Made by a program: the position numbers and the translations under genes
Shown here: positions 18,679 through 56,213 of the stretch, in pieces
Layout: every line of letters begins with the position of its first letter
Position numbering within the stretch: the first letter of the stretch is position 1
Source of the DNA: Glandiceps talaboti
Lineage: Eukaryota; Hemichordata; Enteropneusta; Spengelidae
Assembly: GCF_964340395.1 (NCBI RefSeq)
Contig: NC_135551.1
Location: 20,081,003 to 20,145,002 of the forward strand
DNA: 64,000 nt
Direction: 5' to 3'
Notes under the pieces: model-generated
Database searches by the model: none
Told to the model about the DNA's origin: nothing
Seen by the model: only the letters and a program-made list of their open reading frames with translations

Positions 18679-27999
<9,321 letters not shown>

Positions 28000-31772: not shown

Positions 31773-32544
31773 GTCTGAACCAAAACTTAGCCCGCATTCA
31801 GACTTTATTTGACAGGGTCACACGACTTTAGGCCAAAATCAGAGCGCCCTCTACGACCACTAAGATTTTATACTTCAAACAAAAGTGACGACTAGATACT
31901 GATCGATAATCGAGTACGGTCGCTGTTAATACTCGTATCTATGTACATTGTACTACCCTGTAGCGTGGTTTTATGTCTCGGAGTAGCCATATTTGTGACG
32001 GACATCTGTGAACAACGGTGAGTAGTGTTCAGGGATCATCAGACATCAGCAGTCAGACACAGTGTCCAAAGCTAAAATACGATTGACAATATACTTGTAT
32101 TTTCGAACTCTTAGCATGGCTAATATTCATGACAGTGGAAAAATTCAACGTTAATAGGCTTAGCTAATTAGACCATGGATATATTCGCCCCTAATACGTC
32201 CATGACTACATGACTAGACGTACGTCGTTCATGTATGACTCGTGCTTTGAAACTTGTAATGTGGGTTGCCTTGCTTGTAGTAACTGTGTGCCACTTGTCT
32301 GATAAAAAAATCAAAATGCAAACCGTGTCCGATCGACGTAACGTTCTTCAATGGGTACTTCTTTGATGTAACTGCCAATGAAATTTGCATCTCTTTTGTA
32401 TTGTGTCTACCGGCAGACATTTACATATCAACAAATAAGAGAAAATGTTTTTTGTCGCATGAACCTTTACAGTCACACGTCACTGACCATATTATCGACT
32501 TTCAGCGATTCTTTCCTGGTCACAGTTACCTGAGTGGTGTTGAC

Positions 32545-38970: not shown

Positions 38971-40320
38971 GAGTGTCGTTGTAATAGTTTTCGGTTACCA
39001 TGGTTACCTAGACTCATCGCAGTTGACTACTGCACCTTGAAAAGAGCTACCCATCCGACAACGGTGAGTCAGGGAAATCGATACGTTGTCACTCACCAGT
39101 ATCCTTGTGCCAGGTTTTCCCTGTGTCATCAATTAAATTTTTGGAACGTGATTTTATGAATTGTTATGAAACTTGACACCTTGAAAAGATATATTCTGAT
39201 AAATAAATATTTTTATTTGAAGACCCGTGTCTTTTTCAATTCGTTACCTCTAATAACATAATTATGGATTTTCTAGAAACCGAGTGTTCTACCCTTCAAT
39301 AATATATACGGACATTGGTTTGCGGACTGAGGTTGTATGGTGGATTATAGAGGACCTGACCATGTAAACCGTACTACCAAAGTACATACCCTGTGAAATG
39401 CTAAAATACGTTCAAACTATAAATTCAATAATAGGGGCATTTTGGTATACATGTATCACAGGCAAGTAATACTTGTCTGTGCATGTATATAGGGCTATTA
39501 ACACCGGGTTCGGGCTCTCTGTTTTGTATAGAACCTCGGTTCGCAAGACTCATCCGGGCGTATAATGACTGAATGTCTCGGTATTCTTTTTTGCATATAA
39601 ACCGTTTCCAGGAGAACGGTGAAAATTACTACCAACACGCCCCCAGAACAAAGACATTCCAAACCTCACATACGTCATATCGACATATTCACTCGCCCCT
39701 AAAAAGAGAAAGAAAAAAGTGTGCGCGTACATGTTGGTGACGCCTTCAATTCATAATCACACTTTTAACAGCCTGAGTGACAATGATATTGACATTTTTG
39801 TCAAAATGTGTATTTTATCACTGGCAGATACATGAGTGTGCCCTCTTGTGCTTAGTTCGACCCGCCAACACTTTCACAGGACGGCTGACAGCATGTTTTA
39901 TTTTTTTTATTGTCAGTTGAGATACGCAGAAGTTTTAATAATTTGGGCAACTGATTTGAAAGCATTTTGACCTTGAGAATGACAGCTATATTAAATACGT
40001 TCTACGTTAATGCATTGTGCTATTATCGTTCTAAATTATACATGTAAACAGACACACGAAAGATATGACACGTATAAATATTTATTAAAAATGATTTATT
40101 AATCAACATATCAAATAAAAAATTGTGTCGAAAGAGAAAGTGCTAGGCTTCCACAAAACAAGTATAATATTCCAGCCAACAGTAATATGCCTACAATCCA
40201 CGAAAATACACCGGTGCGTTTACTTGCATGTGGTACAGAAAAGAGACCAGGTTCTTGCAAAGACCGTCAATGTACGTACAGCTAAAATGATGCTGGCTTC
40301 AGTGATGTTTCACTCATCGG

Positions 40321-41742: not shown

Positions 41743-44700
41743 TTAATCTGATTCGCTGTCACTGTAACACAAACATTTGGGCCAATAACAACGACCACAT
41801 TTCTGGAAGAGAAAAAAAAAGAGAGAAAATTTATCATTATAATTTATAGAGACACTTTGTCTTTACATCTGACTAGTTACTTTGGCGTACACTCCGAACA
41901 TTTCATTTAAGAGAGACTACAGGTTGTGATCATTTCAATCAGAGACAATATGAACCACAGACAAGTAATTACTTGCCTGCGTTTGGACTATGATAAACGT
42001 CCAATCTGTATGGCAAACATTGCCTGAGAAAAATATTGGATTGTTGGTTATAACGTGCTATATATAACAATGTAATGTAAGTGAAAATAGCCACACACCA
42101 ATTATCGTATCTTTTCTTAGTGGCCATATGGATTTGGTATTTAGTTCGAATTTCTAATGTATATTTTGCTGTATCCTTATAACTCTCTACAATAACATGT
42201 TTCTCATGAAAATGAAGGATAAATTCATGCTTATGCATTCATCAGAACCTTTAGGCGACTCTTCAATCTAATACGATTTTGAAAAATAATATAGTTCACT
42301 CAAATCACCCGTGCATTCACTATGATCACGATATGTCACTTTGGCAGTAACACACTAGTGTTACAACAAAAAGATTACTTTGTTTTCACATTTTGTAGTT
42401 GATAGAGGGCGCTATTATTAATCAGTACTCACGTTGCAGTGAACAGCACATCTACCAACACAGTCACGACATTTTCTGCAGTGATTACGAGCCTCGGCAT
42501 TACTTATCTCACGCATCTCATAATCACACCATGAATATGCATAGACTTCATCACATTCATCACCAGGGCAACGTATCAACCCAGGAATACATCGATGTAA
42601 CTTCACAGTGGTATTACAGCAATACAGCTCTGTGTCAGTATCCAATAGTTTCCGAAGTCTTTCATCTGTCACCTGTCAAGAGTATTTGTATTAAATGTGG
42701 TTGGTACATGGAAAATCAATATTCAAAGTAATTGTAATTCTGTGTAAACATCCAACAGTAGGCCCTCAACAGGGATTATCTACACTAGCACTACACACAA
42801 CCGGAACGCTGGTGGTTAGTATTTCACGAGTAGTCAGCTAAGCATATTTTATGAGATTGGTGATATCAATAATGCTGGTGAGGGCAGATTTGAAACTGTT
42901 GTCTTTTTTATAGGGAAAATAGTATAAGGTTATATTCTGGAATTACCTGAGGAATGAGTGGATATCTATAACAGTTTTTCTTGCCAGTAGCTTGATCATT
43001 GACAAAAGATAGTGGACCTTACCGTTGTCATAAATTGCATCAAGCAGGGGTCTTCTTTGCACTTGTCAACATCAACTCCAAACTCGGCCATGACTTCCAA
43101 TCGGTTGAATGGATTCTTACAATCACTGCATTTACAGGAAGAACTACACACATTGCCGTATTTGTGGCACCTACATCGATTACTAATGCAGTTGGACTTG
43201 CATCCACAGGACGTGTTATCTGGACTGCTCCTAGTTGCACTTTCACCACTACATGTGTCTAGCCGGGACTTTTTGGTTTTCTTTGGCAACGGCAAGGCAT
43301 AATCTAGAAACGAATGAAAACATTATTTTAGTGTACACTTTACTTCATGTCGAGTTTGACTGCCATCAACCCATTCACAACAATGTATGTCCCGTGTGCA
43401 TTACTTCCTCTGTGAGGTGAAACACGAACAGATGCTGGTGACAAATCTTACGTGGTGGACCTTTGTTTTCAAATGCCTGACAACACATATTGTACACTAC
43501 GAAAGCGCCGTCAAGTCTGGTGCAAACTGTAACTCGCGACAGGAAACCGTCAAGTCTGGTGCAACCTGTACTCGCGACAGGAAACCGTCAAGTCTGGCGC
43601 AACCTGTAACTCGCGACAGGAAACCGAAGTCGGCAGTTAGGGGAAGCGTTGCTCAGAGACTAAACGACACAAAACATTTTTTGCTACTCAATAATTCTGT
43701 TACATTCACAGAATCACTTCAGAGTTTCCTCACATCAAACATAAAAGATAAAAACATAACAGGCCTAGAAACGGCAGCTGACTTTGAAGAAAGAGTCACT
43801 CGAGTCGATGTTACAGCCCAGATTGTAGCAAACCATAGACCCTACACGAAGCTCTCTAGACGTTTCGACATCTGGCCATTTCGCCCCCAGTCATTTCGGC
43901 AAAACTTTCTCGGTACCTGGACGTTTCAGCACCACTACTACCCTGGACGTTTCGTTTCCCCTTATTTTAGCGTAAATTCGTTATCAGTTAACCCTATCCA
44001 AACCCAACCCTAATCCAGGGTAGTGGTGCCGAAACGTTCAGGATACAGAGAAAGTGGTGCCGAAATGACGAGTTACCGTACACGAACCATGACGAGACCT
44101 GACGGTGACCGGTGACGGGCCGGCAAAACTGTTAGCCCGGTCTATTATAAAGCACATCTACTTCGTCTAATTCCCATCTATATAGTATCTTCGAATTCCG
44201 TTTTGATCTTTTCTCATGACAGATACTAGTCCTGCTTGCAAAACGGAATACGGGACTCGATTCTGACAATGTTCCCCTCCTAAAGTTTAGGACATGAATC
44301 ATAACATACACATCCTCTGCAAGCTGGGCTAAAATTGCCAAGGTTCATCATACCATGGAAGTATACTTCCATGATCATACATAACTGTGGCAGTTACGTG
44401 GCTTAATGTGCGACTACGATGTCTGATTACGAGCTCAGTTCTCTACATTGTATAGTGGTCTGAGCATAGGGTAAATGACAAATAATCAATTTTGTTGTCG
44501 TGATTTTCCGGATTTCCAATATTGTTTCTCTACATTTTAAATATTGTTTCCTTTCACTCACTCCCCTATGTTCTACTGCTATCACTGTCTTATCAGAGTT
44601 TACCAACTTTGCATTAATTAGTAGATTGCTAATCCTAGAACAAACTCACATGCTAATTGCCCAATTAACACATTGCTCAGTGAGTGTAATCATCTACTGA

Positions 44701-46288
44701 TCCGACATGTAGGGTCTATGATCCGACCATGGAAGTAGAACCCCCATGATCCGACTAAGCTCTAGTCTATCTGCTCGACCTCGGTTGTTCTTCCGATACA
44801 ATACGACACACGACCGAATATCGCTATCGAGGATAGCCCTCACTGCAAACTTCGTTCGCTTCTAGTATCGAAAGAAAGCCTGAACGTCTAGCAACAAGAC
44901 TAACTAAGCTCAGACTCAGACCACTATTTAGTGGTCTGAGGACTAAGTGCACTGTCATTAATCGGATCATGGATCTGAGTAATGCGTTAATTGCAATTGG
45001 ACAAATAACTAGTGAGTCTGTTTCCGGATTACCAAGCTACTGATTAATGCAAAGCTGATAAACTCTAAGATATTAATAACAGGTAGGAAATGGGAAAAAA
45101 ACAGTGAGAGGAAACAATATTTAGAAATCCGGAAAATCGCGACAACAAAATTGATTATTCGTCCTTTTCCCTGTGGTTCAACTATAATCTAGTGAGTGGT
45201 CATGTGTTGCATACCATCGTCGCAAACCACAGCCTCTGTTAATTTATGGCACAGTCGAAAAGTGTCGAAGAAATAACAGCTCCGGTTTGCGAGAATATTA
45301 TGGCTGCGTACATGGACGGACGGAGGAATTAGGAATGGATATGTAGTGCTACAAATTAGCGTGCGTTATTGGTTTTGGATCAACATGGGCAAAAGGTTCA
45401 TCATCATAAACTTTGATAAAGTGAAAGTTGTGCGATAACTGGTCTGATTAGGATTCCTGTTTATGGCGGGCCGCATTACTAACGGTGCCTGTTACCGTTA
45501 CGGTACACGTAGAGGGCCACTTTCTCCAGTCCCTTGGTAATTTTTTTTTTGAATTTAGAACATTGCTTATCTTTACATGTAAAATTGTTACATATTAAAA
45601 AGAAACAAGATGACAATCGAGTCGGCAACTGGTTACGTGACCATTTTCACTTGGTTTGCTCATAGACCCTGGTGTAGGGTCTATGGTTTGCTGAAACAAT
45701 AGTCCTGTCGCGATGACTGACACGCATCGTCGCAGACCACGGCCTCTTTTATGGCACCGTTCAGTACATTATTTATTTATTTTATTAACTGTATGTTATT
45801 TCGTAGCATGCAAGTATAACCCACGTGGGTTATTCCATGTTCGTAGTATATAAGGCGGAAGAAATAACAGCTCTGGTTTGCGAGAATGAAAACACCGGGA
45901 CTTTGTAAAGTTTGTTGTTATTGCCAGGCAAGAATAAATAATATGGCTGTCTTCGGGAATAATTTCAATAAATGACCGAGAAGTCAAGAGAGTCGTCCGA
46001 AAAGGGGGTGACCTGTTACCGCTCTCAAAATGTGCATTTACGACAGCATGCATCGGCCCAAAGTATAATCCCTCGGGCCTGGGACACAATTTTTTTTTTT
46101 TTACCTTTCACCCAAACCGAGCCCAACCCTTCAATTTTAAAGAGAATAAGTTTTCACTTGCCTATATATCTTCTATAGTAACGCAGGTCAGAGATATCGT
46201 ATATTTCATCGGGGTCGTAGCTCCCAGACAATTCGATGCTTCGTTTCCCAGTACTGCCACAAGAGCTGCCGGTAGACACTTCAGACAT
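41743..46288 (-). CDS. CXC-domain (tesmin/MSL2-type cysteine-rich) protein, 4 exons, complete
   Basis: Exons (minus strand) 46162-46288, 43023-43303, 42433-42672 and 41743-41802 join with matching phases to give 235 residues from ATG 46288 to TAA 41743. The N-terminus is Ser-rich, followed by DPDEIYDISDLRYYRRYIDY, a basic stretch (PKKTKKSR) and a CXC motif (about residues 75-105) beginning CGCKSNCISNRCRCHKYGN. Such motifs bind zinc and, in tesmin and MSL2, DNA. The C-terminal part is also cysteine-rich (CRKCRDCVGRCAVHC, then KCGRCYWPKCLCYSDSESD). There is no RING finger, so it is not a full MSL2 orthologue. Function is unknown; a DNA- or metal-binding nuclear role is an inference. The first intron has a GC donor (ATAG then GCAAGTG), while the others are GT-AG. 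The first intron is 2.86 kb and filled with inverted-repeat insertions. Confidence 0.85.
43508..43626. repeat. Three tandem copies of a 40-bp unit
   Basis: Each unit starts GTCAAGTCTGG(T/C)GCAA and ends CTCGCGACAGGAAACC. The copies differ by a few bases. It lies in intron 1 of the CXC gene. Confidence 0.9.
43890..44069. mobile_element. Foldback element
   Basis: GTCATTTCGGC at the left and GCCGAAATGAC at the right. Pairing continues inward (ACGTTTCAGCACCACTACTA against GTAGTGGTGCCGAAACGT), so arms exceed 50 bp around a loop of about 65. Confidence 0.75.
44354..44373. mobile_element. 20-bp perfect palindromic insertion with 7-bp target duplication
   Basis: CATGGAAGTATACTTCCATG sits between two copies of ATCATAC (44347-44353 and 44374-44380). 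It is simply two CATGGAAGTA ends back to back, the same end as the 48006-50442 element. Confidence 0.75.
44707..44720. mobile_element. Micro-insertion with CATAGACCCTACA-type end
   Basis: ATGTAGGGTCTATG lies between two exact ATCCGAC copies (44700-44706 and 44721-44727). The right end is the inverse of CATAGACCCTACA, also seen at 43834 and 45661. Confidence 0.55.
44728..44748. mobile_element. 21-bp palindromic insertion with 7-bp target duplication
   Basis: It begins CATGGAAGTAGAACC and ends CCCATG, and lies between ATCCGAC at 44721-44727 and 44749-44755. Together with the neighbouring insertion, three ATCCGAC copies separate two inserts. Confidence 0.65.
44924..44949. repeat. 26-bp palindrome, CTCAGACCACTA arms
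   Basis: CTCAGACCACTA, TT, TAGTGGTCTGAG. The same 12-mer occurs at 31761 and 44449 and, altered, at 25611. No convincing target duplication is seen here. Confidence 0.7.
45217..45295. mobile_element. TCGCAAACCACAG-family MITE, copy 2
   Basis: ATCGTCGCAAACCACAGCCT at the left and AGCTCCGGTTTGCGAGAAT at the right. It is the shortest of the three copies. Confidence 0.65.
45661..45685. mobile_element. 25-bp palindromic insertion with 7-bp target duplication
   Basis: CATAGACCCT at the left and AGGGTCTATG at the right with five bases between, flanked by exact GTTTGCT copies (45654-45660 and 45686-45692). Confidence 0.75.
45727..45886. mobile_element. TCGCAAACCACAG-family MITE, copy 3, interrupted
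   Basis: CGTCGCAGACCACGGCCTCT at the left and AGCTCTGGTTTGCGAGAAT at the right. It is longer than the others partly because a 33-bp palindrome is inserted at 45807-45839. Confidence 0.65.
45807..45839. mobile_element. 33-bp palindromic insertion with 7-bp target duplication
   Basis: It begins CATGCAAGTATAACCCAC and ends GTGGGTTATTCCATG, two near-complete ends of the CATGGAAGTATAACCCAC type fused at their inner sides. It is flanked by exact TTCGTAG copies (45800-45806 and 45840-45846). Confidence 0.8.
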
Positions 46289-46465
46289 CTTCTGTTACTC
46301 GTTGAATTTGATGACAAAGACGACACGGTGTTCTGACGACGTCGGGCAGGGAATGTGGAAAACGATTATAAAGTAGCAAGTTATATCCCGCCAAATTTCA
46401 AATATTTGAATATTCATAAGACGATACCATTCGGAGAGGGTTCGTCAAACATGAAGTTTTAATCA

Positions 46466-46504
46466 ACAAACAAACAAACAAACAAACAAACAAACAAACA
46501 AACA
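46466..46504. repeat. (CAAA)n microsatellite
   Basis: About ten CAAA units upstream of the CXC gene start. Confidence 0.95.
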
Positions 46505-47017
46505 AAGTACTGTATTGTGGGATGAAAATCTTTAGCTGTTTTTTGTACTTTACAGACTAATTTGAGTAACTTCTATTACATTCACTATGGCAGCTCATGT
46601 TGAACACAACACAAGGTAAAACTACGTGCTCGTGTTTAAAGAGGCCACACCCCTCTTTCAAATGGTCGATTCTATATGACTCAATAAACGATGCAAACTA
46701 AATGATCAAAGGACCCGTCAGAGGCGCTTGACACACTGATTACGCAACTCGTTAGAACAAAAAGACAACAGAAGATTGGATCACAGACAAGTAAGAAACA
46801 GATTGTTTCTAACTTGTGTGTAGTCAAATTTATCATTGGCGGGTCACAAGTATAGGAAACAGTTCAGGGATTAAAATGTAAAGATCTCTCCCGAGTCTAT
46901 CACATCTACAATATGCAGCTTAATAGTCCATGTTAACGTTCCGGGACTGTTAATCAACTGCTACGCATTCCAAGAACAATCTTACTTTCAAATTTTGCAA
47001 ACTTTAATGAGTCAGAC

Positions 47018-47045
47018 CATGGATGTACTAGGGGATACATCCATG
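47018..47045. mobile_element. 28-bp palindromic insertion with 7-bp target duplication
   Basis: CATGGATGTA at the left and TACATCCATG at the right, with eight bases between. It is flanked by GTCAGAC at 47011-47017 and 47046-47052. A third GTCAGAC (47057-47063) follows after CATA. Confidence 0.75.
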
Positions 47046-47675
47046 GTCAGACCATAGTCAGACAAATGGAACTTTATAATGACCACTACGCCTAGATCAA
47101 CGAGTAAATTTATTCAACAAGCATACACCAGAAGGTGTAATCATTTATATATTTCATTGTAGTACTGTTACTTTTCAGTACTTGTTTATTATCATTGTGA
47201 TCTTTCCATTTTTTGCGCAGTTCTTTAGATTAGTGAAATAAGCCCAATGGGCTGGGTGATGTATTCACTTTCTGTTCTTTTTATTGATAATTTGTAAATG
47301 TATATTCCCATGTCACTATAATAAACCACTATTACTACTACTACTAGTACCACAGAGTGCTTAGGCTCATTTAGTTCTGTTTACAAATATAAACAAAACA
47401 AAATAAACATACAAGTAAACAAACAAAATAACCTGACAAATGAGTAGATACGTCTAGCAGCAAGACTATGCGTACATGTATGCCCATGACAAGTAAGACG
47501 CGTACGCAACCTGATTGGCTGTGTGTCTCACTAAGCAGAAATTCGTTTGCATGGAGGCGATCAGGCTAAAAAATGTAAACATGTACGAAGAAGGTCAATT
47601 CAGGCAAAATAACGAAGGTAAAATAGCAATGAACGATTAGCCGACATCTACATCGGATTTTAATCAGATTGTGTC

Positions 47676-48005
47676 AAGATGCTATCAAAAGAAAGTATAT
47701 TTCAAAAGTACTAGTATTTCAACCCTGTGTAGTTGCTTTTTACATGTTGGTGCCGTCTTGTAAAGCTTGGAATTATTGTCTGAAAGGGTCTGAATAGTCT
47801 CAAAATTGACTCTTCAGAGTAAAACTCCTCCAGGGCTTCTAGAGGGAGACCCCCTTGGACCCCCCCCATGAGGTGGACATATCCCAGTCTCAAGCTCTTC
47901 CCCTCTTACTGTCAAGATGCTATCAAAGTATATTTCGAAAGTATTTCAACCCTATGTAGTTGCTTTTTAGATGTTGGTGTTGTCTTGGAAATTATTGTCT
48001 GAAAG
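47676..48005. repeat. Tandem repeat of about 237-bp unit, interrupted by the 2.4-kb element
   Basis: Unit 1 runs 47676-47912 and unit 2 starts at 47913 with GTCAAGATGCTATCAAAGTA. Unit 2 breaks off at 48005 after CTGAAAG and resumes at 50443 with CTGAAAGGGTCTGAATAGTC, continuing to about 50582, where a third partial unit starts. Unit 1 contains the same site uninterrupted (CTGAAAGGG at 47779). Confidence 0.8.
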
Positions 48006-48299
48006 CATGGAAGTATAACCCACAGGAAGAACAACTGGGGAGGGATCAAACAGCACATGTTGAATGCCGCTGTTTGCACTGCAATCATCAATCGCTTACT
48101 TTAAGCTTGATAAGCTGGCTTTCCTAGCGATGTGTGAACAACTTCCGGGTGTCCGGAACGAGCTTAGCATATTAATGACGTAGTTCGGGTGTTGTTGTGG
48201 ATACTCGTTACACATAAGTCTGAGGTAGAAACACAGGCATTTGTTTCCCCAGTTATGTCTCAGAATATTTCTATCACTGTTATCAGAATAAAATTACAA

Positions 48300-48474
48300 G
48301 GGGAATTGGAGGAGATAATTTTTTTTCTAACTACCTTCCGAAAAAGTGATTGGATATGTTTACATGGTAGACGGAGAGCCGCTATCGGCCGTAACGTGCT
48401 GCTGTTACATAAAGGGCTAGGACAATATGCAAAATAAGTAGTTAGAAAAACATTCTGCTCCGATCCAATTCCCC
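48300..48474. mobile_element. Foldback nested in the 2.4-kb element
   Basis: GGGGAATTGGAGGAGATAAT, then a T run and CTAACTAC, is mirrored at the right by GTAGTTAGAAAAACATTCTG, then CTCCGATCCAATTCCCC. Confidence 0.65.
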
Positions 48475-48483
48475 TACATGGCG

Positions 48484-49039
48484 TCAGAAATCGGTTGATA
48501 TCTTTGGTAGGCATGGTCCGATTGTAACAACGACGCGATTTATCGGAAAATTGTTACATTTGGGAACTAGGAAGGGACGGAAGGTAAAATCGAAATGTTT
48601 GCCCACTACAACGGTCGGTTGAAAGTTCATGTTTATGTACGGTACTGGGTTATACATAATTTGCTGTTCTTCTTCGCCCATGTTTCTTGGGTATAAAGGA
48701 GAAGGTATCTCACTTGGCAAATCGCGCTCTTTTTCACTCGCTGAACTGGATCTTACTTTATCTTCAACCGGAGTTTTTTCTGGAAACTTCACCTTGTATA
48801 TTGGGTTGTTTTCCAATAGTTCACGAACCCTGTCCTTTGGTTTCACTGGTCTACCCTTGGTCAGATGATCACGTTCATAGTTAGCAATAATTTCAGGAAA
48901 ACGGCGATACGCTACCTCAATATTTCGTGGCAGTTTACCATGGTAATGCTCATTTAAAATGCGGGAATGTTTATTTACCAACCACTGCTTAGGTGTGTCA
49001 CCGGTTACAGTAGATACCAAATACTTCGATTCCATGCTT
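48484..49039 (-). pseudogene. Downstream half of the PB1/zinc-knuckle ORF, in the +1 frame
   Basis: From about MESKYLVSTVTGDTPKQW to the TGA at 48484, some 180 residues continue the protein begun at 49912, one base out of frame and overlapping its last 14-17 codons. It is rich in charged and proline residues (KGRPVKPKDRVREL, SEKERDLPSEIPSPLYP) with no recognised domain. Good codon-like composition in both frames around a single shift suggests a recent one-base change, or less likely programmed +1 frameshifting. A separate start (the ATG in MESKYL) is possible. Confidence 0.55.
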
Positions 49040-49912
49040 CGACGGATCACTATTTATCAACCAACTTTCGATTTTCCGCTCAAACGTAGACATTACTTTA
49101 TCTTTAGTTTCTATTTTCTGTTTCAACTCAAGGTCCCTCTTCTTACATGTAATATCCTTCTGTAGTTCATCACGATGTTTGCCGAGACCCGCTAGTACAC
49201 TCTTCTCATTAGCGTGATCTGGATGAGATATATCACCACAGATCTCTGCAGAAGAGCACGCCTGGTAGGGACAATTTCGCCGAGTATGAGAATCACGGAG
49301 GTGACACTTTCCACAACGCTTGTATAGGGAATCGCCAGGTTCAGACCGGGAATACTTTGTATTTTCTTCTGCGATCTGGGCCTCTACTGTCCCAAGTTCT
49401 ACTTTCAGGTCATTTAGTTCAGTTTCTTTCACCTTTATGGCTAATTCGAGTGGCGATGTGTATACAAACTGATCGGTACATGCATTTTCGCTGGCCGTAC
49501 TAGTACATGACAGTGTACTCTCTCGAACTTCAGACGTAATTGACCCATTATCGTTGTCTACACTGGCGTCGGTGAATCTTAGTCGCTTCGGCCGGCTTCC
49601 ATGTCCTTTGTCATTGTTCCTCAAACTGGCTGGTACAGGAGAACAACCATCAACGATAGATACCTTTATCCGCTTGTAGTCAGCCCGTTCCACTGGTTTA
49701 GCACAGCGAAACATGTCAGCCATGTCAAGTTCATGGTTAGACAGAGTGATAGACGTTCCATTATCATCTTGATATTGGACCTGGAAATCCATACATTCTA
49801 ACGATGGTACATGTTGTTTTATTGTAGATATGAAATGTTCATAATTCAATGTCTCATCGATGTAGAGATGTCGAGTTTTGTTCCAATAGCTGAGCTGAAA
49901 TTGATACGACAT
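48998..49912 (-). CDS. Intronless PB1-like, coiled-coil, zinc-knuckle protein carried by the 2.4-kb element
   Basis: A 304-residue frame runs from ATG 49912. Residues 1-87 look like a PB1 domain: two strands, a helix, then an acidic OPCA-like cluster (VQYQDDNGTSITLSNHELDM) and a closing strand (KRIKVSIVDG). PB1 domains mediate head-to-tail protein assembly. A Ser/Thr-rich linker with a basic patch (SRPKRLRF) follows. Two predicted coiled coils (about 153-187 and 233-284) flank a cysteine/histidine cluster, CGKCHLRDSHTRRNC and CSSAEICGDISHPDH. This is a CCHC-like knuckle with one extra residue. The protein ends out of register with the conserved-looking continuation at 48484-49039. I recognise neither a transposase nor a reverse transcriptase. 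A structural (gag-like) or regulatory role is speculative. Confidence 0.65.
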   Translation of the reverse strand: MSYQFQLSYWNKTRHLYIDETLNYEHFISTIKQHVPSLECMDFQVQYQDDNGTSITLSNHELDMADMFRCAKPVERADYKRIKVSIVDGCSPVPASLRNNDKGHGSRPKRLRFTDASVDNDNGSITSEVRESTLSCTSTASENACTDQFVYTSPLELAIKVKETELNDLKVELGTVEAQIAEENTKYSRSEPGDSLYKRCGKCHLRDSHTRRNCPYQACSSAEICGDISHPDHANEKSVLAGLGKHRDELQKDITCKKRDLELKQKIETKDKVMSTFERKIESWLINSDPSKHGIEVFGIYCNR

Positions 49913-50942
49913 CGTGCACGTGACGGTGACAACCAGAGTGACTGACAGCCAAATTTTGTTTACAATCTTATATGTTTATTCAACTTCAATCTCAGTGAAG
50001 GCGATTTTATATGTACACAGTCGTAAAAGGTGGGGGAAAGTCAAAACTGTCGTGCCTATATTTAACCGTTCCTCTAAACATGATATTCCACGTATTGTCA
50101 ACTTGTTTGACTTACACGAAAAGAAGTCGTCGGGATTTACTCCAGAATTTCATTTATTCATACAATGTAATTAATCACGAATAGTATGCCATATTTAGGT
50201 TAACGTTACTCCCCCATTAAAAATGACATTGTCCAGAGAATATTTGATCTCATTTTATACAGAAGTCCATGTACTTGTTTCCTGATGAGTAAACATCCGT
50301 TTACAGATAGATTACATTTAGAGCGACCACGTACTGGGTTGATAATCAAACACTGTTATTTTACACCTGATATGAACGTTTTAATTGAACGGGACAAGTA
50401 GCTGAAACGCTTTACTTCCCCGTTAACGGTTGTACTTCCATGCTGAAAGGGTCTGAATAGTCTCAAACTTGACTTTTCAGAGTAAAAAACCTCCAGGGCT
50501 TCTCACTAGGGGGAGACCCCCTAGGATCCCCCAAAAGAGATGTACATATTCCCTTCTCAAGTTTTCCCCTACCCTTCACTGTCAAGATGCTATTAAACTA
50601 AATATATTTACCCTGTGTAGTCAATAATTATAATTATGATAGTGCTAACCCGGGATCTTAGAAAGTAGATGCAAGACAGTCAAGCAGTCCAAACTGAGTC
50701 ACGATCAAAAAATGCCTGTCATGTGAATATTATATATGGGGGCGGGGGATAATGTTTTAAAATTAAGTGATAGGGGGGTCAGCCTGTTTTGGGTTTTACA
50801 GATGGGGGGGGGGGGGGGTCAGTGACTTTTTTTCGGCCCAATTTAAGAATCTTCCGCCGCCCCGCCCCCCCCCCCCCAGGCTGGAGAAACTGACCGGCAA
50901 ATTAACGTAACATACTTTAGGTTTCGACGTCTGTGCGGAGCA

Positions 50943-51163
50943 CAGGGGCGTGTAATATTTCATAGATTGTTGTTTTCTTATTGCTTAGAATGCCGTTTTC
51001 TTAGGAAAATATCGTACGAATCTTGCTGCTACAAATGTATCAATCTCTATACTACTAAGAAATCTCTTCCCCTTACATGTAGGAATATATATTAATCAAA
51101 CGGTTGTTATATTTAGTCTGTAGACCTGGAAAACAACAACCTATGAAATATTACACGCCCCTG
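50943..51163 (+). mobile_element. MITE with CAGGGGCGTGTAATATTTCA ends, copy 2
   Basis: A 221-bp, near-identical inverse of 24129-24346, with about 35-bp terminal repeats. It lies upstream of BDH1. Confidence 0.85.
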
Positions 51164-51263
51164 TGGTGCTGAGCTCCGGAGGCGCGCGCGCTTGAACGAT
51201 TATCCAAGAAGTTGCCACACTACAACCACTCGCCCCATCTTGATCTTAATACCACTGAAACAG

Positions 51264-51690: not shown

Positions 51691-52883
51691 ATGGCGTCCG
51701 TGAAAATTTATATTCTTGTATTGTGTGTATTTGCATCATTGCCTTTCCTCCTACCGCTACCCGTGTCTTGTATCACTACCAAAGTAGGGCTAAGTTTTCT
51801 GACGGTCACTGCAACAATTCTATTTCTTTGGTTAAGTCCCACGAGGGGACGTATCACGGTTGATAACAAGGCTGTTCTGATCACAGGGTGCGATTCTGGG
51901 TTTGGCTTGGCGTTAGCAAAACACCTTTATTCACTTGGCTTCGAGGTATTTGCTGGATGCCTTTTAAAAGATAAAGGAGGAGCTGGAGCTAAGGAATTGG
52001 AGGGGATCGACAAGGAACGATTGACGGTCCTGCAGCTGGACGTAGCTTCCGATCGTCAAGTAAACAACGCAGTCAAAGCAGTGAAATGGACTTTAGCAAG
52101 ATCTCACAGAGGTAACAGAAAATATACATCCCTTTTTTTCGGCGCTGAAAACTACTAATGGTGTATGGTATACGGCCAGGGGTGTAATACTGATAGACTT
52201 CTTTATACATATGCGTGTGGTCTTTTTTTATATTATGGCTAATGTGTGCACCGCCAAGCTTACAAACTGTAAATCTCTGCAGCAAATAGAAGACCTTCTC
52301 CCAAGTTTCTCCAAATATTCACTTCGTCGTAGCTTACAAAACAGAGAATGGCATTTTCCCTTTACAACAATGTCCGTGTCCTTGTTGCCCAATCAATCAA
52401 GTCGGCTTCATGCATATGATTCAAGGTTACGACTATGCTCTTCTCTATGATACTAGACTACCGTATGACCATAGACACTTGAATTGTGTCCCTAGCTTTA
52501 TTTAAGAATAATATAAAATACTAATAAAATGATAACACGGGTTCATAGGATCGCGCAAGTCCACATCATGTGTTTACAGTTATACCTGTGGACTGGCATG
52601 AGGCATAAACAGTGTGTGCACTTAAACGCAATCCTCGGAACCCATGTTATTGTACCCCCTCGCCCTTCACAAATCATCGGCTAAATACATCAATATTATC
52701 AATAATATTGATAATATTGATATGTTTCAGAAAAAGATAAAATATTATTTTATCTTTTTCTGAAACATATCTTTGGACACAAGTGTATATGACCTCTAGT
52801 TCATGGCGAGTCAACTTACCAATGATAAAATCGTAAAAATATATTATTGATATTTGTCAGCATTTATTTATTTATTTGTTTGT

Positions 52884-54474: not shown

Positions 54475-54958
54475 TGGCTGTGCATTGTGATCAGTGGATA
54501 TACTCGAGGAGGGGTCGGACAGGGTTTGTGTTCGTCCTGTTTGGGTATTTGATGCAAGACCACTGCAGCAAATCAAGATATATACAAATCAATATATGTG
54601 ATTCTAGCAGTATATGAATAGCATGAGTACAATACAGAATGAGGCTTCCCCTCAAACATTGAAATTGTTATGTTAAAAGACATGTAGGTTTTCATGATCA
54701 ATCCCAGGTTCTCAGATTAGTACTACCTTATCAGGGGAGCCATAAGGATTATATGAGATCATTTTTATTTCTAGACAAAAAACTTTATTCAGCTATGCAA
54801 GACATCTGTTTTTAATGCCTAAATTTTAATCCAAATCTGAACTTTAATAGCCTGTTTATTGCGCTGTTGTGTTACATTGGTGACTCTTGTCATACCTCCT
54901 AGCCCTTGAAACCAATGCTTGTTTTGAGAATGTGAACGATTGGTAATTGCGATTTGAA

Positions 54959-55590
54959 AATGTGTGCCCAATAACCTGATTACAACCATTATATTATTCA
55001 AATAAAGTCATTATGTAAATGTACACCCAATAACCTGATTACAACCATGATGTTATTCAAATGAAGTCATTATGTAAGTGTACACCAAATAACCTGATTA
55101 CAACCATGACGTTATTCAAATGAAGTCATTATGTAAGTGTACAACCAATAACCTAATTACAACCATTATATTATTCAAATGAAGTCATTATGTAAGTGTT
55201 CACCAAATAACCTGATTACAACCATGACGTTATTCAAATGAAGTCATTATGTAAATGTACACCCAATAACCTGATTACAACCACATTATTCAAATGAAGT
55301 CCTTATGTAAGTGTACACCCAATAACCTGATTACATTATTCAAATGAAGTCATTATGTAAGCGTACACCCAATAACCTGATTACAACCATGACGTTATCC
55401 AAATGAAGTCATTATGTAAGTGTACACCCAACAAACTGATTACAACAATGACATTATTTAAATGAAGTCATTATGTAAATGTGCACCAAATAACCTGATT
55501 ACAACCATGATGTTATTCAAATGAAGTCATTATGTAAATGTACACCCAATAACCTGATTACATTATTCAAATGAAGTCATTATGTAAGTG
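54959..55590. repeat. Minisatellite: eleven copies of a 59-bp unit
   Basis: Each unit reads roughly TGTACACCCAATAACCTGAT, then TACAACCATGA, then TTATTCAAATGAAGTCATTA. Units 6, 7 and 11 carry internal deletions (50-56 bp). It lies between BDH1 and ZMPSTE24. Confidence 0.95.
55001..55006 (+). terminator. Candidate polyadenylation signal (AATAAA) for BDH1
   Basis: Only the first minisatellite unit has AATAAA, the others having AATGAA. It is about 860 bases past the BDH1 stop codon, in the same orientation. Use of the site is unproven. Confidence 0.3.
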
Positions 55591-56213
55591 TACACACATA
55601 GAAGAGATGAAGACAGGAGTTAACACATGAAGCATGTGAAGTGTGCATGTGATAATTTACATGTAATTATGTAAATTTAACATTCAAATGTTTGATAACG
55701 ACTTTTGGGGGTGTGGCTTACTGAATCAGTTCTAATGGTTCTCAATGCAAGCGAGTTGGTTTCAATGGCTAGGAGATACGACAACAGCCAACGATGTAAC
55801 ACAACAGTGCAGTAGAAAGACCATCCAAGCAAGACATAAGAGTTGATACAGATCCAAATTGCAGATAACTCCAATATCTAAAAGTTAAACACAACTAAAT
55901 AATGAAGATTCTGTATACAGATAGATGTTAATTCTATTTTACTTTATTGAATGATAGAAACATAACAATAGGATCCAATGAGTTTGTGACTAGACAGAAT
56001 AAAATATGCACAATTAAAACATTAATCAAGTAAAAATAAGTCAAATAACAATTTCAAACTTAGTCGTTAAATTTCTCAAATTCTTGGAAGCAAATCCCAA
56101 TTCTCACAATAATTTCAAAGTTTGCATAAAACGGACTTGAAATACAGAAAGTTTAGAAACACGTGTTTCTATATTACAAAACACCATTTCTTGAGGCCTT
56201 TATTGCGTATACA

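Follow-up and report, generated by a model that had tools for sequence, protein, structure and literature searches.

Palindromic inserts between 7-bp repeats in the genome of Glandiceps talaboti are very probably excision footprints of P-superfamily transposons

The stretch of Glandiceps talaboti DNA analysed here is 64,000 nucleotides long and called the window in the following. A sulfotransferase frame is most similar to proteins of this acorn worm (Hemichordata), at 81 and 77% identity. The window harbours five palindromic inserts of 20-33 bp between positions 44347 and 47063, each with exact 7-bp repeats on both sides. Two further inserts, of 14 bp and 4 bp, each share a flanking repeat with the adjoining insert. 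We consider each of these palindromes to be the excision scar of a departed P-superfamily transposon, and not a miniature mobile element, with a probability of about 95%. A previous sequence-only reading had reported inserts with their 7-mers at 44354-44373, 44707-44720, 44728-44748, 45661-45685, 45807-45839 and 47018-47045, and all of them are present. It had also interpreted the inserts as two fused transposon ends and the exact 7-bp flanks as target site duplications (TSDs) of cut-and-paste transposition, which is in agreement with our results, including full-length elements that possess the same ends and 7-bp duplications. The features read as footprints are the following.

44347..44380, footprint 1: TSD ATCATAC, 20-bp perfect palindrome CATGGAAGTATACTTCCATG (44354-44373), TSD ATCATAC
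44700..44755, double footprint: ATCCGAC three times, at 44700, 44721 and 44749, with two remnants between the copies
44707-44720, first remnant of the double footprint: 14 bp, family B, only the right end kept (13 nt)
44728-44748, second remnant of the double footprint: 21 bp, family A, 16 + 5 nt, one mismatch
45654..45692, footprint 3: TSD GTTTGCT, 25-bp insert (45661-45685), TSD GTTTGCT
45800..45846, footprint 4: TSD TTCGTAG, 33-bp insert (45807-45839), TSD TTCGTAG
47011..47063, footprint 5: GTCAGAC, 28-bp family-C insert CATGGATGTA (47018-47045), GTCAGAC, CATA, GTCAGAC
39450..39488, footprint candidate, family D: TSD CATGTAT, 25 bp CACAGGCAAGTAATACTTGTCTGTG, TSD CATGTAT

The starts of the inserts had been described correctly in general, except that the insert at 45807 begins CATGCAAGTA and the insert at 44707 lacks the left CAT. 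The flanking 7-mers are exact, as claimed; GTTTGCT is not rare in the window (13 forward copies, including the flanking two). The third GTCAGAC copy, at 47057-47063 after CATA, had not been mentioned; we read these 4 bp, which separate it from the second copy, as a putative second, minimal footprint.

The 44354 insert corresponds to two family-A ends with a TATA overlap, 8-12 nt per side, without mismatches. Neither this insert nor the one at 44728 was equalled in its fit to family-A ends by any of 2000 random stretches of the window. The 45661 insert is wholly covered by 10 nt and 15-16 nt of the ends of a complete 9179-bp element on contig C24; earlier fits of this insert and of the 44707 insert relied on window ends chosen for the same ten letters, and the fit to the C24 element is independent. 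In the 45807 insert the left 18 nt are present with one substitution and the right side comprises, by eye, 18 nt minus 3 bp, with 6 mismatches in a gapless fit to the ends. The best fit of the family-C insert at 47018 to the ends of other families has 5 mismatches, no intact element of family C was among those found, and no donor element was seen for the family-D candidate at 39450. The tandem partner of the 45800 site was set aside as candidate empty site, because its alignment is too poor. Searches for tRNA and Rfam families found nothing, and an 18-nt end has no match in viral contigs.

Flank matches of palindromic inserts in the window are far above chance at 7 bp, and not at 6 or 8 bp. 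In a first scan, an insert had to be 4-44 bp long, with CA..TG ends and inverted arms of 3 or more, and to be bordered directly by exact repeats; 300 dinucleotide shuffles served as control. Eight such inserts had flanks of 7 bp, whereas the shuffles averaged 0.49 and never exceeded 3; five belong to the cluster described above, one is the site at 39450, and two, at 43920 and 56537, have weak arms. At 6 bp there were 2 inserts (1.70 in the shuffles) and at 8 bp 1 (0.09). Flanks of 5 bp were also in excess (20 versus 6.26, maximum 13), likely as a result of tandem repeats. When arms of at least 4 were required, 6 inserts remained at 7 bp versus 0.09 (maximum 2 in 100 shuffles), 3 versus 1.22 at 5 bp, 1 versus 0.26 at 6 bp, and none at 8 and 9 bp. 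The same scan with one flank mismatch allowed gave 12 versus 1.78 at 7 bp, 6 versus 5.73 at 6 bp, 0 versus 0.54 at 8 bp, and 2 versus 0.20 at 9 bp. Short palindromes and 7-mer repeats do arise randomly, and the matches at 43920 and 56537 look like such cases and may be due to chance; the 5-bp excess in the same scan would also speak for chance. Nevertheless, chance as the origin of the palindromes in general is vanishingly improbable, being refuted by the recurrence of flanks at the genome sites listed below and also by the shuffles and the intact elements.

The genome comprises 590 Mb in 47 contigs, with the window on contig C4 (20081003-20145002). In this whole genome the 14-nt end CATGGAAGTATAAC of family A occurs in 1111 copies, versus 6 copies of the reversed pattern. 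The analysis of flanks covered the first 100 of the 1111 places listed, which lie on C1 and part of C2 and are not a random draw, and these were taken with 5 kb (40 places) or 180 bp (60 places) of context. They correspond to 94 sites, 74 of which are independent after dropping 20 with flanks common to another site; the 14-nt probe favours scars in which one end is preserved over roughly 14 nt or more. The sequence-only reading had proposed comparing flanking 7-mers with chance across the genome, and the flanking 7-mer recurs within 60 bp in 30 of the 74 independent sites, whereas a swapped-flank control gave a mean of 1.93 and a maximum of 5 in 200 trials. Among the same 74 sites, words of 5, 6, 8 and 9 bp recur in 38 (control 8.36), 31 (3.75), 12 (1.71) and 6 (0.04), and words of 10 bp in one. 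The counts of 31, 30 and 12 at 6, 7 and 8 bp therefore place a break in the length of the flank repeat after 7, although the 8-bp and 9-bp repeats are somewhat above a chance extension of 7. An exact 7-mer repeat within 60 bp is absent from the other 44 sites, which counts against the footprint reading. Among these sites, L080 and L081 are the left and right ends of one intact element, L009 is a scar that was copied as part of a repeat, and others, such as L012, L018, and L024, are visibly aged inserts with both ends and changed flanks.

Excluding L049 and L100, in which the 7-mer match lies inside the probe, 28 of the 30 sites are usable footprints. Their layout is the one expected of P-type excision, in which two TSD copies enclose end fragments no longer than the presumed stagger, and their joins vary. 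The kept end on the probe side measures 13-17 nt in 16 of them, 18 nt in 10 and 19 nt in 2, and is never 20 nt or longer; about 14 nt are forced by the probe alone, and the 19 nt in two footprints are ambiguous because the ends overlap and the extra base can be assigned to the other side. This limit near 18 nt is to be compared with the 32-bp inverted repeat of an intact relative, L109. The joins include 18 + 18 blunt (L106), 17 + 17 (L094), 18 + 14 (L026), and 18 plus one base (L031, L069), and the remaining ones show no overlap, an overlap of 1-3 nt, or fillers of 1 to 17 nt. By eye, the fillers of L090 and L108 resemble nested second inserts. In L031, L040, L069, L085, and L097 one end is nearly gone and the TSD is intact. 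Sixteen of the 44 sites without a flank repeat retain the first 18 nt, of which 5 continue with AGG like the intact element and 11 differ. In L025, a scar of family B, one of the two sides retains 19 nt, so that the value of 18 may not hold exactly for every family.

The loss of interiors by hairpin or slippage deletion after the insertion of whole elements, which the sequence-only reading had offered as one of two explanations, is not needed and is very unlikely indeed. Inverted repeats can promote deletion, and related elements of differing length exist (2437 and 1518 bp). However, such deletion has no reason to stop at 18 nt within inverted repeats of 32-37 bp, and it predicts neither one-sided scars with an intact TSD, such as the five mentioned above, nor fillers.

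One scar, CATGGAAGTATAACCCACGG, is found between TTCTGAT and TCTGAT with identical flanks each time in 12 of the 94 sites (L009 group). Five sites of this group, taken with 5 kb of context, possess a common frame that is, by eye, reverse transcriptase-like, and this scar was probably multiplied by a retrotransposon. As the copies have common flanks, the scar was copied inside a larger repeat.

The other explanation offered before, that the transposase itself mobilises bare end pairs of 14-36 bp, would account for inserts that carry TSDs and end sequences, and for the presence of one identical short insert at many places, as in the L009 group. Nonetheless, it is extremely unlikely. The L009 copies share their flanks and so multiplied within the larger repeat, and independent sites mostly differ in join and TSD, with shared joins only in L048/L078 and L031/L069. 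Drosophila P requires 138 and 216 bp of its ends (PMC1562414). Moreover, mobile end pairs would leave the 18-nt limit unexplained, and they are not needed where kept ends stop at 18 nt, joins are varied and full-length elements exist. The claim that elements this small have no standard description does not hold either, since excision footprints of P-type transposons are a known category into which the inserts fit.

Intact elements support the reading of the inserts as excision footprints. Family A (CATGGAAGTA elements) possesses TSDs (CTGAAAG, CTTGTAG) and inverted repeats. Its relative L109, on C2, is intact, with a length of 1518 bp, a perfect 32-bp inverted repeat and the TSD CTTGTAG. The following features were found in the window.

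48006-50442 (47999..50449 with TSDs), family-A element of 2437 bp: ends CATGGAAGTATAACCCAC and CATGGAAGTACAACCGTT, TSD CTGAAAG on both sides
47780..47786, plus strand, empty site corresponding to the 2437-bp element: CTGAAAG present once in the adjoining unit of the tandem repeat
19340..19674, 335-bp element with family-A-like ends: CATGGAAGTATAAC and CATGGAAGTATATG, flanks ATTGAAG and ACAGAAG, 5 of 7 positions identical

The 2437-bp element lies inside a tandem repeat, and the adjacent unit is uninterrupted at the equivalent place. Since this uninterrupted unit carries a single CTGAAAG at 47780, the 7-bp duplication made by the element is seen directly. The element encodes a frame with a PB1 domain on the minus strand, which a second frame overlaps (48487-49975). 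The PB1 frame was rejected as transposase, as Pfam gives PB1 only. At E <= 0.001, the protein collection contains no homologue of either frame, and a transposase domain was not found in the scanned frames of the element.

A transposase was detected in family B. A genome search with PF21787, the model for the N-terminal RNase H part of P-type transposases, gave 13 matches, 5 of them in open frames of 724-794 aa. At the second-best match lies the complete element of 9179 bp (C24:18349274-18358452), with family-B ends, perfect inverted repeats of 37 bp (CATAGACCCTACAC.. / CATAGACCCT.. / CATAGACCCTACACCAACAGG..), and the TSD GTTACAT on both sides. The TSD length and the repeats, which start with CA, are those of the P superfamily, for which TSDs of 7 or 8 bp and repeats of about 31 bp are expected. 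Three of its four frames scanned, on one strand and unspliced, match PF21787 (E=2.2e-25), PF21788 (E=6.4e-8), and PF21789 (E=7e-8), the models for RNase H N, GTP-binding and RNase H C, which together correspond to a split RNase H fold with a GTP-binding insertion. These domains and the GTTACAT duplication make family B a member of the P superfamily that duplicates 7 bp of its target. The four scanned frames showed no THAP domain, no relatives of one transposase frame were found in the PDB, and the small Pfam model PF12017 for P transposases had 0 matches in the genome, its controls being silent as well.

The 32-nt ends of families A and B agree at 20 of 32 positions, a value reached by 9 of 100,000 shuffles, and a common kind of enzyme is thus likely for family A. 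Of families A to D, only B is tied to a transposase; we infer that families A and C would be served by the same kind of enzyme. Family-A ends were not found at the transposase loci L110-L121. Two of these P-type loci, L112 and L113, are 99.97% alike over 3444 bp, and element ends were not found for them.

Several transposon superfamilies leave footprints, with TSDs of 5-9 bp, and the inserts could in principle be excision footprints of another superfamily, such as hAT, Mutator, or Transib. However, footprints of these types generally retain few bases and are not known to keep 18 nt per end, the family-B element has P-type transposase domains, and the target motif of the footprints is that of P relatives, so that another superfamily is very unlikely. 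The 17-nt cut of P has itself been described as unusual (PMC7776569).

The target motif was derived from the TSDs of the 28 footprints. T is present at position 2 in 24 of 28, A at position 6 in 20 of 28, and both in 17 of 28, and the commonest base at each position gives GTTTAAC. Similarly, the six TSDs of the window have T at position 2 in all cases and A at position 6 in five; CATGTAT (39450), outside this count, has A at both positions. Among the P relatives of flies, 1360 (Hoppel) makes a 7-bp duplication at the target GTTNAAC (PMC3276498) and Galileo a 7-bp duplication at GTAGTAC (PMC2775673), both close to the motif found here, whereas the P element makes an 8-bp duplication at GTCCGGAC (PMC3276498). 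In contrast to the elements described here, Galileo has much longer inverted repeats; the likeness to 1360 and Galileo noted here is one of TSD and target motif. The word footprint is absent from the Galileo paper (PMC2775673), and the passages on 1360 (PMC3276498) make no mention of scars. The ends of the elements are themselves similar to the target motif and serve as targets for other elements, as the family-B scars of L025 and L082 sit at GTATAAC within family-A ends.

The scars are best explained as follows. Insertion of an element duplicates 7 bp of the target. On excision, the transposase would cut one strand where the element meets the flank, and the other strand within the terminal inverted repeat at a distance of about 18 nt, a staggered cut predicted from the scars. 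Each side of the break would then be left with a tail of at most about 18 nt derived from the transposon, and the host would fuse both tails by end joining, either filled in and blunt (36 bp), through short overlaps such as TATA, after trimming, or with filler; this kind of repair is suggested by the joins observed. The product would be a TSD, up to 18 nt, again up to 18 nt, and a TSD. Where a third TSD copy is present, a second element would have hit the same target and then left as well.

Excision scars of P elements are familiar from crosses of flies. Similar to the inserts described here, the P element of Drosophila melanogaster is a cut-and-paste element with 31-bp inverted repeats starting with CAT, and its scars consist of the TSD and two fused end fragments. 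Its excision leaves tails of 17 nt (PMC7776569), which are joined at microhomology, bluntly, or with filler (PMC2895639, Table 1), and the classes of joins are the same as here, including blunt, overlapping, one-sided, and filler joins (PMC2895639). In contrast, the TSD of P measures 8 bp and its stagger 17 nt (PMC7776569), as opposed to 7 bp and an inferred 18 nt here. Among deuterostomes, the zebrafish P-type element Pdre2 / THAP9 also has inverted repeats starting with CATACC, but an 8-bp TSD and inverted repeats of 13 bp. P-type MITEs of Anopheles gambiae are likewise short P relatives with TSDs; however, they have an 8-bp TSD and a real interior, which the inserts lack. The mechanism is already known from flies; what looks new is the combination of 7 bp and 18 nt, and that such scars are naturally abundant in a deuterostome. 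Literature searches on P-type footprints across genomes, 7-bp P relatives, and hemichordate P elements, mostly judged by title, retrieved no title on such scars outside flies.

Scar-like inserts are also present away from the probe sites. The scan for CA..TG inserts with arms of at least 4, applied to 200.8 kb of such DNA, partly overlapping, gave seven distinct inserts with exact flanks of 7 bp, some of them with weak arms; at other flank lengths it gave 7 (5 bp), 2 (6 bp), 0 (8 bp), and 1 (9 bp). Together, 7 inserts in 200.8 kb and 6 in 64 kb would correspond to some tens of thousands genome-wide, which is a rough estimate because the DNA was not drawn at random. We are slightly inclined to regard the genome as a natural archive of P excision, in which scars outnumber intact elements, several P families share a 7-bp target and an 18-nt rather than a 17-nt stagger, mutual insertion into element ends at GTATAAC leads to nested scars, and germline breaks are mostly end-joined and not copied from the sister or homologue. 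In this deuterostome genome the scars appear to be permanently present, and a single assembly could therefore document the outcome of break repair in nature in very many cases, each with a starting structure that is known. Stagger length, the germline spectrum of end joining, and the balance of insertion and excision of P elements could then be measured outside flies by sequence alone. In repeat libraries, scars of this kind may be entered as tiny elements.

Several other observations were made in the window. A lone family-B end at 43827-43847 follows AGCAAAC, the reverse complement of GTTTGCT, and thus of the TSD of the scar at 45661, which lies at a distance of 1.8 kb in inverse orientation; 21 bp match exactly between the two places, and the lone end is possibly filler copied during repair, or the result of a rearrangement. 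At 32167-32219, a 31-bp palindromic insert (CATGGATATATTCGCCCC..ACGTCCATG) after ATTAGAC is followed by a CATG spacer and ACTAGAC, and this complex site is probably an aged double scar. An inverted-repeat element of about 740 bp occupies 44452-45187, with the double scar 44700-44755 in its loop. A 43-bp palindrome with 21-bp arms, unrelated to families A-D, lies between ATAT repeats at 52724-52766. A short hAT-like element of 222 bp with an 8-bp duplication (CTGTTGGT) is found at 24119-24356, and an inverted copy of 91% identity at 50939-51165. Finally, a tandem repeat with a unit of about 59 bp extends over 54955-55598.
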